Source: Seongchinamella unica (GTDB lineage: Bacteria > Pseudomonadota > Gammaproteobacteria > Pseudomonadales > Halieaceae). Taken from it: a DNA stretch of 64,000 nucleotides. This document shows, piece by piece, positions 5,391 to 61,760 of this stretch. Both the position numbers and the translations under genes were made by a program. The notes beneath the pieces were generated by a model. It had not been told where the DNA came from, ran no database searches, and saw only the letters and a program-made list of their open reading frames with translations. Position 1 is the first letter of the stretch. Every line of letters begins with the position of its first letter. The DNA lies in the NCBI RefSeq assembly GCF_004354085.1, contig NZ_SMSE01000003.1, positions 1 through 64,000 of the forward strand, written 5' to 3'.

Positions 5391-5520
5391 CCGTCTTCCC
5401 CGCTTGGCCTACCCCGTCTTCCCCGCTTGGCCTACCCCGTCATCCCCGCTTGTCCTGCCCCGTCTTCCCCGCTTGTCCTGCCCCGTCTTCCCCGCTTGTC
5501 CTGCCCCGTCTTCCCCGCGC
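5391..5520. repeat. Tandem array of 23-bp units
   Basis: Five consecutive 23-bp units start at 5391, 5414, 5437, 5460 and 5483, and a sixth partial unit starts at 5506. Each begins CCGTC(T/A)TCCCCGCTTG and ends CCTACC or CCTGCC. The first two carry GGCCTACC endings and the last three TGTCCTGCC, so duplication seems stepwise. The unit start resembles half of the dispersed GTCATCCCCGC-type palindrome. Chance in-frame ORFs across it encode only repetitive proline-rich peptides. No protein-coding function is proposed. Confidence 0.9.
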
Positions 5521-5600
5521 AGGCGGGGATCCAGCTGCCCCGGTGACGGTGCTAGTGCTGAACGTCTCTGGATTCCCGCCTGCGCGGGAATGACGGGACT
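5506..5600. repeat. Inverted pair of palindromic CCCCGC/GCGGGG repeats
   Basis: Two copies of a short palindromic repeat face each other. The first has CCCCGC-GCAG-GCGGGG followed by ATCCAG; the second has GGATT followed by CCCGC-CTGC-GCGGG and AATGACGGG. Such paired palindromes (BIME-like) are common in gammaproteobacterial intergenic regions. They sit between the 23-bp and 34-bp arrays and look like the source of both. Confidence 0.7.
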
Positions 5601-5823
5601 GGTGGATTGCTGCGCAAGCGGGAATGACGGGACTGGTGGATTGCTGCGCAAGCGGGAATGACGGGACTGGTGGATTTCTGCACAAGCGGGAATGAGGGGA
5701 CTGGTGGATTTCTGCACAAGCGGGAATGACGGGACTGGTGGATTTCTGCACAAGCGGAAATGACGGGACTGATGGGTTTTTGCGCAAGCGGGGATGACGG
5801 GAGTGGGGGATTCCTGGAGCGTC
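5586..5823. repeat. Tandem array of 34-bp units
   Basis: Units of 34 bp start at 5586, 5620, 5654, 5688, 5722 and 5756, with a degenerate seventh at 5790. Each begins GGGAATGACGGGACTGGTGG and ends in GCGCAAGC or CACAAGC. The first two share GCTGCGCAAGC; the next three share TTCTGCACAAGC; the last two diverge. The units abut with no spacers, so this is a minisatellite and not a CRISPR. Together with 5334-5941 it fills the gap between convergent ilvC and ilvH, which holds no gene. Confidence 0.9.
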
Positions 5824-8181: not shown

Positions 8182-8540
8182 AGCAAATCTCCTAAAGCGC
8201 CCGACGCGTAACCCTCGCCGGTGCGAATCTTCAGATTGTGTGGTCGTTGCGAGAACGAATACCTGAGACCGGTATTCGGCAGGCCACGCCACCCCCTTTG
8301 TCGAGCTCGATACACTTCGCAATCCGTCCCCGGGAGGGACGCTCCTTCAGGGAAAAATCGATCACGAACCCGTGTATCGGTCGCCCTGCGGGGTAGCGCA
8401 GTGTCTGGCCCTCAACCTGGCCAGTGCGGCCCAGATTGAATACGGGACTCACAAACAGCTGGAATGAATAATCGGATCAAGCCAGTAGACCAGAGGCCGA
8501 GGGTACTCGACGTTAGCCGTTGCCATTTGCAAGACGGGGC
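8182..8540 (-). other. Long untranslated leader of ilvBH
   Basis: About 360 bp lie between the proposed ilvB promoter and its GTG start. A short open frame (73 codons, 8231-8452) occurs, but it has no family resemblance, no run of branched-chain codons and no good ribosome site. A small stem, CGTCCC-TCCC-GGGGACG, lies near 8325-8341. No U-rich terminator typical of an amino acid attenuator was seen. Nothing recognisable is encoded. Confidence 0.4.
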
Positions 8541-21748: not shown

Positions 21749-21866
21749 GGTCTTCGGGGGAATTATGCCTTCCCGTGACCGCCAAAAAGCATACATCCAT
21801 GTATAGGCTCGGCCTCGCACGTCCTGTGCTCGGACGTCCCGGTAAGGCACAATTCCCCCGCAGACC
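21749..21866 (+). repeat. Hairpin-core repeat element, copy A
   Basis: Arms at 21749-21771 and 21844-21866 are inverted repeats (21 of 23 positions). They enclose a 72-bp centre that starts with a diverged form of the shared core (GCCAAAAAGCATACATCC, ATGTATAGGCTC). It begins 28 bp after the bamD stop. The arms do not resemble those of copies B, C or D. No coding potential is proposed. With copy B it fills the 350-bp gap between convergent bamD and nadE. Confidence 0.8.
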
Positions 21867-21937
21867 TCGAATTTTTCAAGACTGAGGCGCCGGTACTATC
21901 CCCACGATACGCTGATTAGTTCGAGCTCGATGAAGGA

Positions 21938-22049
21938 CTGGGGGGCAGAGACTTCCTCACGAAGATGTCTGAGCACATGGAGGTGCGAAGCCAAGCAGCC
22001 AGGGATGGCGCGCTTTTGCGGTCTTCGTGAGGAAGTCTCTGCCGCCCAG
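21938..22049 (-). repeat. Hairpin-core repeat element, copy B
   Basis: Arms at 21938-21965 and 22022-22049 match at 27 of 28 positions as inverted repeats. The 56-bp centre is the shared core in reverse orientation and is the most diverged copy (TGTCTGAGC, CGAAGCCAAGC, GCGCTTTT). It ends about 22 bp from the nadE stop and could terminate transcription from either side, which is inference. Confidence 0.8.
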
Positions 22050-22071
22050 GCCGGGCGCGTATTGCGAAGGT

Positions 22072-27526: not shown

Positions 27527-28477
27527 CTAGAGGTTTTTCACCGGCACCCGCAATTCCCGGGGCAGGGAAAAGGTCACGTTCTCGGGACGACCGGCCGTCT
27601 CCACCGGGGCCTCGGCTCCCAGCTGGCGCAAGCCTTCGATGACCTCCTGCACCAGTACCTCGGGTGCAGAGGCACCGGCGGTGACACCGATGCGTTGCTT
27701 GCCCTCGACCCAGGCCGGATCGATGTCCGCGGCGCCATCCAGCAGGTGCGCCTCGGCGCCCATGCGTTCGGCCAGCTCGCGCAGGCGATTGGAATTGGAT
27801 GAATTCGGTGATCCCACTACCAGCATCAGGTCGCACTTCGAGGCGAGCTGCTTTACCGCGTCCTGGCGGTTCTGGGTGGCGTAACAGATATCATCCTTGC
27901 GCGGTCCCTCGATCTGCGGAAAGCGGGCCCGCAGGGCGTCGATCACCAGCGCGGTGTCATCCATTGAGAGTGTGGTCTGGGTCACGTAGGACAGCTTGTC
28001 CGGATGCGCCACCTCGAGACTGGCAGCCTGGGACTCGTCTTCCACCAGGTAGATCTCACCGCCGGCAGAGTGATCGTACTGCCCCATGGTGCCTTCCACT
28101 TCCGGGTGCCCGGCATGGCCGATCAAAACACACTCCCTGCCCTCGGCGCTGAATTTGGCAACCTCCATGTGAACCTTGGTTACCAGCGGGCAGGTGGCAT
28201 CGAAGACCTTGAGCTTGCGCCGGTCCGCCTCCTGGCGCACCGCCTGAGATACACCGTGGGCACTGAATATCACAATGCAGTCGTCGGGCACCTCTTCCAG
28301 CTCGTCGACAAAGATAGCGCCGCGCGCACGCAGGTCCTCCACCACAAACTTGTTGTGCACCACCTCGTGACGCACGTAAATGGGAGAGCCGAATACTTCC
28401 AGGGCGCGATTGACGATATCAATCGCCCGGTCGACCCCGGCACAGAAGCCCCTGGGATTGGCAAGCTGGATGTCCAT
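27527..28477 (-). CDS. ispH: IspH, 4-hydroxy-3-methylbut-2-enyl diphosphate reductase
   Basis: IspH is the final iron-sulfur enzyme of the MEP isoprenoid pathway, yielding IPP and DMAPP. From [19 protein letters not shown] the product is 316 residues, matching E. coli IspH. The three conserved cluster cysteines appear in [17 protein letters not shown] and [10 protein letters not shown]. An upstream in-frame extension of 30 codons lies entirely in a repeat element and is not coding. The only ribosome-like sequence (AGGG, about five bases before the ATG) falls inside that element's outer arm. Confidence 0.95.
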
Positions 28478-28480
28478 CAG

Positions 28481-28794
28481 GGCCTGTTCACACCAACTGA
28501 GCTGCCCCTGCTGCGACTGGTTTTGTGGCCTGCAAGGCAGAATTTGTGCTGTGTGGTAACTCCACATAAGCTATTTCTAACGCCGCAGGCCGCAAAACCA
28601 GTGACAGCCCTTTGGGTTGCGGCAGAAAAAGCGCCACTCTTCGTTACTCGCGCCCAAAGCACTCGCTTCGCTCGCGGGGCGGACCCTTGTTCATTTGGAA
28701 TAACCAAACTTCTCTCCTCCCGTCGGTTTGCCGCACCACTCGATTGGCGCTTTTCCTGCCACAACAGGGCCAACTCAGTTGGTGTGCACAGGCC
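28481..28794 (-). repeat. Nested inverted-repeat element between fkpB and ispH
   Basis: Outer arms of about 33 nt (28481-28513 and 28762-28794) share GGCC, ACACCAACTGAG and CCCTG blocks as imperfect inverted repeats. Inside are two further inverted pairs: 28516-28533 with 28585-28602 (17 of 18 positions) and 28616-28636 with 28745-28765. The right outer arm ends exactly where the fkpB stop codon begins, and the left arm starts three bases before the ispH ATG. The whole intercistronic gap is therefore the element. A 98-codon open frame runs through it but looks non-coding. Confidence 0.8.
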
Positions 28795-29250
28795 CTAGTG
28801 CAGCTCCGCCGGTTCCACCCGGTGAATCATCACATCAAACAGAATCGTCCGACCGGCCAGCGGGTGATTGAAATCGACGGTCACCTCTTGGTCGTCAAAA
28901 GAGATGATCATCCCCGGCAGTTCGCCGCCGCCGGCGTCGGCAAACGAAAAGACCAGACCGATCTCCAGATCGATATCATCGTCGAACTGGTCGCGTGGCA
29001 GCTGCTGTACATTGTTTTCATTGGGCTGGCCGAAGGCGTCCTCCGGCGGTACCTTGAACATGTGCCGCTCGCCGGCGCTCATGCCAAAGATACAGCGTTC
29101 AAACCCGGGCAGCAAAGAACCGTCGCCAATGGCAAAATCCACCGGGTCACCGCCGAAGTTGCTGTCAACCTCGGAACCATCCTCAAGGCTGACAGAAAAA
29201 TTGAGGTAGACACGGGTGCCTTCACTCACGGGAACGTCGATACTGCTCAT
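28795..29250 (-). CDS. fkpB: FKBP-type peptidyl-prolyl isomerase FkpB (SlpA)
   Basis: The 151-residue protein is an SlyD-like FKBP with an inserted chaperone flap. It includes the motifs VDFAIGDGSLLPGFE and DFNHPLAGRTILFDV, typical of the SlpA/FkpB group encoded between lspA and ispH. It acts in the cytoplasm as a prolyl isomerase and chaperone. Its ATG follows the lspA stop directly (TGAATG). Downstream, the repeat element begins at its stop codon. Confidence 0.93.
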   Translation of the reverse strand: MSSIDVPVSEGTRVYLNFSVSLEDGSEVDSNFGGDPVDFAIGDGSLLPGFERCIFGMSAGERHMFKVPPEDAFGQPNENNVQQLPRDQFDDDIDLEIGLVFSFADAGGGELPGMIISFDDQEVTVDFNHPLAGRTILFDVMIHRVEPAELH

Positions 29251-40131: not shown

Positions 40132-40252
40132 GGCGCCAGCGGCTGTGTGTCCCCCCAGAAAAACGCCAAAAAGCGTACATCCCTGTACAGGCTTGGCTTC
40201 GGCCATCCATGGCCTCAGACATTTTCTGTGGGGACACACAGCCCCTGACGCC
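40132..40252 (+). repeat. Hairpin-core repeat element, copy C
   Basis: Arms of 31 nt at 40132-40162 and 40222-40252 match at 28 positions as inverted repeats, including GGCTGTGTGTCCCC and GGGGACACACAGCC. The 59-bp centre is the best copy of the core. It holds two perfect small hairpins, GTACA-TCCC-TGTAC and GGCCAT-CC-ATGGCC, separated by AGGCTTGGCTTC. It lies between fumA and the coiled-coil gene; no gene is seen in 40022-40389. Short ORFs through the core are likely spurious. Confidence 0.85.
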
Positions 40253-43065: not shown

Positions 43066-43102
43066 AGTCATACCTTTGTATTGGGTTAATCCTCCACATA
43101 TC

Positions 43103-43139
43103 CCTGTTCCAAACCTCCGTGGAGGCACCCTGGAACAGG
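43103..43139 (-). promoter_or_regulatory. Leader stem-loop upstream of rpsB (candidate S2 autoregulatory element)
   Basis: A perfect 9-bp inverted repeat, CCTGTTCCA (43103-43111) with TGGAACAGG (43131-43139), encloses a second hairpin, CCTCC-GT-GGAGG (43114-43125). It ends about 37 bases before the rpsB ATG. Gammaproteobacterial rpsB leaders are known to carry a conserved structure that S2 binds to repress rpsB-tsf. Identity with that element is inferred from position and structure. Confidence 0.6.
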
Positions 43140-43217
43140 TGTCGACATGTGTGTGTCATTTAATCTCACTCTCCGCCCAGCCGCCCGAATGGCTTCTGCC
43201 CGGAAAATGAGGCGCGC

Positions 43218-48797: not shown

Positions 48798-48918
48798 GGA
48801 TTCGGTGCGTGGAGTAGCCTCTCGAAAATGTCTGAGGCCATGGATGGCCGAAGCCAAGCCTGTACAAGGATGTACGCTTTTTGGCGATTTTCGATAGGCT
48901 ACACCACGCACCGAAGCC
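48798..48918 (-). repeat. Hairpin-core repeat element, copy D
   Basis: Arms of 32 nt at 48798-48829 and 48887-48918 match at 29 positions as inverted repeats (GGTGCGTGG, GTAGCCT and TCGAAAAT blocks). The 57-bp centre is the core in reverse orientation, nearly identical to copy C, with both small hairpins preserved except for one changed loop base. It lies between the convergent ends of nth and the Smr gene; 48700-48942 has no gene. Confidence 0.85.
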
Positions 48919-61685: not shown

Positions 61686-61760
61686 TGGGGTGTCGCCAAG
61701 CGGCAAGGCACCAGGTTTTGATCCTGGCATTCGGAGGTTCGAATCCTCCCACCCCAGCCA
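61686..61760 (+). tRNA. tRNA-Gln (anticodon TTG)
   Basis: A 75-nt gene folds as a cloverleaf: acceptor stem TGGGGTG (61686-61692) with CACCCCA (61750-61756), discriminator G and encoded CCA (61758-61760). The anticodon stem is CCAGG/CCTGG with loop TTTTGAT, giving anticodon TTG at 61718-61720, and the T arm holds GGTTCGAATCC. It is encoded between ispE and prs, a position conserved in gammaproteobacteria. Confidence 0.97.

Follow-up and report, generated by a model that had tools for sequence, protein, structure and literature searches.

What is the nested inverted repeat of 316 bp that parts fkpB from the essential gene ispH in Seongchinamella unica, and how did it come to lie there? In the window, by which we mean the whole stretch of 64,000 nucleotides that was analysed, it occupies positions 28480-28795 between two intact genes of the minus strand, fkpB (28795-29250, 151 codons, FKBP_C with E 3.2e-15) and ispH (27527-28477, 316 codons, LytB/IspH with E 4.5e-100). 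Its outer arms, 28481-28513 and 28762-28794, are 88% reverse-complementary, and each of the two inner inverted pairs (28510-28533/28585-28608 and 28616-28639/28742-28765) is likewise 88% complementary. The 346-nt strand 28475-28820 is predicted to fold with -167.9 kcal/mol as against -113.7 kcal/mol (sd 5.4) for 100 shuffles, none of which was as stable (z = -10), and the nested element that an earlier note had proposed at this junction is thus real. That note let it end at the fkpB stop codon and three bases before the ispH ATG. Both contacts stand, as the fkpB stop TAG (28797-28795) touches one arm and three bases separate the other from the ATG at 28477-28475, but element-free relatives and other copies show that the mobile unit extends one base further on either side.

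Read on the ispH strand, the junctions are CAC-TA-GGGCC ... GGCCC-TG-ATG, and the unit is oriented with ispH. It begins with the 5' arm or terminal inverted repeat P1 (28762-28795, minus strand), which adjoins the fkpB stop codon, followed by a first core hairpin, P2 (28599-28766, minus strand), a second, P3 (28509-28625, plus strand), and the 3' arm P1' (28480-28513, minus strand); the inner pairs given above are the stems of P3 and P2, respectively. P2 matches its covariance model with E 2.2e-22, and P3 matches the same P2-built model. On the fkpB side the element is flanked by TA (28796-28797), which together with its first G makes the fkpB stop TAG, and on the ispH side by TG (28478-28479, ispH strand). 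One mechanical ORF of 98 aa (28773-28477, TTG start) lies almost entirely within the element and matched no Pfam family at E <= 0.01. One terminator-like site was found inside, on the plus strand, no better than the range of shuffles. Rfam gave no match to the element at gathering score, with two miRNA models at E 1.6-1.9 as the closest, well short of that score; elsewhere in the window it recognised an ilvB-OMG RNA (8318-8535, minus strand), a t44 RNA (43085-43173, minus strand) and a tRNA (61686-61757, plus strand). The likeness in layout to small core elements that had been remarked upon holds, but searching the window genome with either sequence missed the other. The window also carries another repeat family of ~120-bp hairpins (21749-21866, 21935-22052, 40132-40252 and 48798-48918), in which a conserved ~57-nt core containing two small hairpins is enclosed by ~31-nt arms that vary among copies; the core has 18 matches in the window genome. 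A separate 35-nt inverted repeat of the GCGCAGGCGGGAAT type, 86% complementary, stands at 5500-5602 beside further partial repeats.

The element at the fkpB–ispH junction is an insertion. Besides the window genome (G000), seven genomes of its genus were compared (G001-G007), six of which are readable at this junction, the ispH of G007 being cut by a contig end; in all six the fkpB stop overlaps the ispH start and the element is absent, the overlap reading TGATG in G002-G006 and TAATG in G001. In G005, whose IspH is 93% identical, the junction reads CACTGATG, and the junctions of the nearest named relatives, HTCC2148 and Pseudohalioglobus sediminis are those of G004 and G006. Many further Halieaceae genomes also have overlapping fkpB and ispH, and three (G012, G015 and G032) have longer junctions that are dissimilar to the element. 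The comparison with related genomes that the earlier note had proposed therefore yields the element-free allele, and not the unique leader conserved in all relatives that it had named as the alternative to a mobile unit.

Empty sites were also found for other copies. A second insertion at a stop/start junction is present in G007, between lptE-like and holA-like genes, which we take to be lptE and holA; the corresponding site in relatives is a bare CTGATG in five of seven and a different element-free junction in the other two. Furthermore, for four of ten tested solo arms of G005, a relative has a bare CTAG at the corresponding position (L146, L152 and L142 in G000; L149 in both G002 and G004, with TTAG in G000); for the other six, the site was bare but read differently, the flanks had diverged or the matches stopped short of the site. 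Two of the 31-bp solos, L146 and L152, occupy exactly the space that separates two convergent TAG stop codons, and such solos may have arisen from the long element by deletion between its GGCCCT repeats. As G000 holds no second full-length copy and the nearest full copy within the genus is only 73% identical to that of the window, the window insertion is not young.

The copies are numerous and dispersed. With up to three mismatches, the arm pattern had 8, 21, 3 and 1 matches, respectively, in four of the eight genus genomes; the remaining four had no match, and the reversed pattern matched in none of the eight. Further copies, whose existence the earlier note had suggested searching for, thus recur in the window genome and in its relatives; in the former, arms, one partial copy and one short form were all that was found besides the window element. 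With a 263-bp copy from G006 as query, matches were obtained in 11 of 140 Halieaceae genomes (5 of 28 genera; five or fewer candidates scored per genome), with long copies in four genera and only short arm or core matches in the fifth, and these kin of the window element sit beside other genes. Farther out, the P2 covariance model had matches in 72 of the 390 genomes searched in the order, representing 31 of 143 genera (E <= 0.001), and in 54 of the 369 searched in the class, representing 48 of 272 genera (E <= 1e-5); these counts include the window genome, score only 9-10 candidates per genome and depend on rough model E-values. No phage copies were found, exact end patterns had no match in viral contigs, and three plasmid records matched over 17-29% of the query. 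Searches of the open-licence literature by arm strings, core strings and topics turned up no published report of this family.

The ends of the element lead to a transposase. In genome G325, locus L284 has two arms 808 bp apart from outer end to outer end, with the same ends as the window element, flanked as C-TA...TA-G (CTAG) and enclosing two ORFs (135 and 132 aa) that overlap and match the domains DUF4096 (E 3.2e-20) and DDE_Tnp_1 (E 1.7e-11). L284 is thus an IS5-family, IS427-like element, and near-identical ends were also found at L325 and L326, so that candidate autonomous elements with these ends do exist. The second ORF of L284 is 71% and 64% identical to its counterparts in IS5-family elements on Cupriavidus and Polaromonas plasmids, which have near-identical ends, starting with CTAGGGCGTGTTCACACTAACTG and CTAGGGCGTGTTAACACTAATTG, respectively, and are flanked by CTAG. 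When this ORF served as query, the transposase was detected in one of the 12 genomes searched but not in any of the four that belong to the genus, the window genome included. Between one pair of inverted arms 2.6 kb apart in G005 (contig C45), inspection by eye showed ORFs resembling ordinary genes and no transposase.

The target pattern is clearest in the copy-rich genome G341, which has 54 forward and 53 reverse arms and copies of 53, 239, 263, 278, 343 and 351 bp. TA flanks both sides in all 37 copies read, these being stretches chosen as paired arms from among the listed pairs. The mobile unit that had been suspected is therefore borne out by element-free alleles, dispersed copies, TA/TA flanks and an IS5-family element that shares its ends, although the target-site pattern fits the window copy only in part. 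Its ispH-side flank is TG and not TA, and the same TA/TG combination surrounds the G007 copy, where relatives have TGATG. A 2-bp TA duplication thus suits neither copy without later change; at both stop/start insertions, either a TA target has changed since or T^GA is usable as well.

We therefore consider it very probable that the 316 bp are a non-autonomous MITE (short, and bounded by terminal inverted repeats) that was moved by an IS5-family, IS427-like transposase and inserted at the overlap of the fkpB stop with the ispH start. The event would have taken place in the lineage of the window genome, where the transposase would have recognised the terminal repeat GGGCCTGTTNACAC... and joined it to a TA-type target, usually CTAG or CTAA; that an enzyme of the IS5 type moved this particular copy is what its shared ends suggest. 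Because the element begins with G, the left junction TA-G would at once become a TAG stop, so that insertions into stop codons spare the upstream protein and are likely survivors. Among copies with long flanks, 23 of 30 end an ORF of at least 80 codons exactly at a stop formed by the element (26 of 60 boundaries), and adding the solos L148, L150, L151 and L159, two of which do so, raises these figures to 25 of 34 and 28 of 68, respectively; this count leaves out three unfetched G005 matches, L002, which is degenerate, and L188, of which the contig has just one end (40 codons). By a mechanical count with ORFs of at least 80 codons, the window outside the element has stops at 6 of 16 CTAG sites and 21 of 98 YTAR sites. 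Specific targeting of stop codons was considered and is needless, since CTAG is often a stop here and insertions within genes would be lost; the simplest reading is a TA target that often falls in stop codons, together with this loss.

What the ends enclose is more unusual. In nine aligned copies the hairpin interiors are conserved, whereas the stems vary yet still pair; P3 is missing from two of the nine, and the P2 of the window copy bears a 15-nt insert common to the G007 copy and a 36-nt insert unique among the nine. Across 40 P2 matches from 41 loci, in an alignment fitted to the covariance model, pairing is kept in 98.2% of cells, and both sides have changed in 19 of the 30 pairs. The covariation score of 0.346, compared with 0.113 for shuffles and 0.04-0.07 for slid controls, can be inflated by relatedness and by template switching within palindromes. 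Covariation computed on all 79 model matches was set aside, because its rows include six P2 antisense matches as well as P3 sequences, and the count of paired changes is thereby inflated. In 32 of 41 loci the P2 model also has a match where P3 lies, without exception on the opposite strand from P2 and with 21-73 bits (window copy: L001 1529-1645, 58.7 bits, E 1.7e-12). By plain pairwise comparison P2 is closer to the reverse complement of P3 than to P3 itself in six of six elements, and beats the best of 200 shuffles in three of the six, the window copy not among them. Given this pairwise result, and given that a hairpin is in part similar to its reverse complement (P2 itself has six antisense matches of 25-41 bits), P3 is only probably an inverted homologue of P2. 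The stem of P2 is maintained by paired changes.

Could the core be more than the filler of one MITE? Five of eight class-level loci viewed have the GGGCCTGTTAAC-type end, while three (L331, L332 and L333) carry other ends, including GGGGGTGTTAACAATTAAT-like and GGTCGTGTCATCAATTA-like ones, around the same core; of L331 only the left end lies within its contig. Compared with L327, the P2 interiors of these three are 81-84% identical, whereas their 30-nt end stretches, 10 nt of flank included, reach 57-63% as against 70-85% for copies with the usual end. Rfam had no match at E <= 0.1 on four other loci. What is new here is thus a strongly covarying core hairpin, lacking an Rfam match, between at least three kinds of ends. 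The core hairpin, mostly as an inverted pair, might accordingly be a conserved functional module across Gammaproteobacteria, kept by selection on its structure, with several IS5-type ends as mere vehicles. The occurrence of the core in the class genomes counted above, the P2 covariation and the variety of ends speak for such a module, but the ends and their transposases may simply have diverged together, stems can also stay complementary through template switching within palindromes, and solos and short forms devoid of the core persist. We hold this idea tentatively and as rather unlikely, although it is compatible with a MITE moved by an IS5-type enzyme and both could hold. If true, the core could act as an RNA that signals processing, termination or stability at the ends of genes, or instead as a DNA hairpin needed for transposition. 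This broad and copy-rich family, many of whose insertions end genes exactly with TAG, offers a route to ask why some MITE interiors stay conserved across a bacterial class.

A second alternative takes the sequence for a native cis-regulatory leader, a structured 5' region controlling ispH translation in the genus. Its position immediately before an essential gene and its great stability would suit this role, as would the SD-like motif in the arm. The earlier note had placed an AGGG there, which is on the plus strand and hence wrong for ispH, but a CAGG/AGG does lie in the arm (CAGG at 28486-28483), 5 nt before the ATG, where the ispH-sense strand reads ACAGGCCCTG-ATG. With the element present, the predicted openness (SD region, 0.15; ATG, 0.38) would also be in keeping with a leader, but in element-free relatives these values vary with the relative and with the folded length (SD region/ATG: G005, 0.30/0.83 in a 120-nt and 0.13/0.01 in a 380-nt context; G006, 0.32/0.26; G004, 0.60/0.82). 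Since the relatives lack the element at ispH, its kin stand at other genes and no Rfam model matches it at gathering score, we reject the native leader as very improbable.

As an inserted MITE, the element may nonetheless bear upon ispH. In G005 and G006 a GGAG lies eight bases before the ispH ATG, within the 3' end of fkpB (GGAA in G004), while the native purine stretch of the window genome is now more than 300 bases away from this ATG. We infer that ispH relies on the weak SD in the arm, which would replace both the native purine stretch and coupling through the overlap, so that expression may be uncoupled or lowered; regulation based on folding is possible. An in-frame ATG is also present 90 nt upstream of the ispH start (28565-28567, minus strand), within P3, which would extend IspH by 30 residues and has no clear SD. 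The locus thus amounts to a natural experiment, in which 316 bp of hairpin separate an essential gene with an overlapping stop/start junction from its native ribosome-binding region, and the gene persists nonetheless.

Least probable of all is a REP/BIME-type element moved by a RAYT (Y1) transposase, which would account for the nesting of the hairpins, for the short palindromes that stand alone between convergent genes and for the lack of a clean duplication at two stop/start insertions, but which is at odds with a DDE IS5-family element having identical ends, with the uniform TA/TA flanks in G341 and with element ends that lack the GTAG or CGTC tag described for REPs (PMC3733652).

As an IS5-type MITE, the element can be compared with several known systems. 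According to the description of the IS427 group of the IS5 family, which includes IS1248 and ISPpa2, its members measure 832-865 bp and mostly have 2-bp direct repeats, and some contain two overlapping ORFs with a frameshift motif (PMC3281130). L284, with 808 bp, two overlapping ORFs and IS5-family domains, fits this description, whereas the window element, which has no transposase gene, shares the ends alone. MITEPsy1 of Pseudomonas syringae is also a MITE with a tentative link to IS5, but it is 100 bp long, has other terminal repeats and a 4-nt duplication, and its description mentions no paired core hairpins (PMC3189936). ERIC/IRU and RUP are, like the window element, small TA-flanked repeats with long stem-loops, and ERIC is reported to alter the stability of transcripts that contain it; by their description they are set apart by their sizes of 127 bp (ERIC/IRU) and 107 bp (RUP) and by the tie of RUP to IS630-Spn1 (PMC2229807). 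QMITE1 of Coxiella burnetii is, as described, likewise a MITE of 300-400 bp with short 2-3 nt repeats that is found at gene 3' ends and can supply a STOP, as in ubiB (PMC5896051), but it carries sigma-70 promoters, of which a simple scan found none inside the window element. Thus, the element belongs to a known kind, and it is the widespread, covarying hairpin core that makes it unusual.
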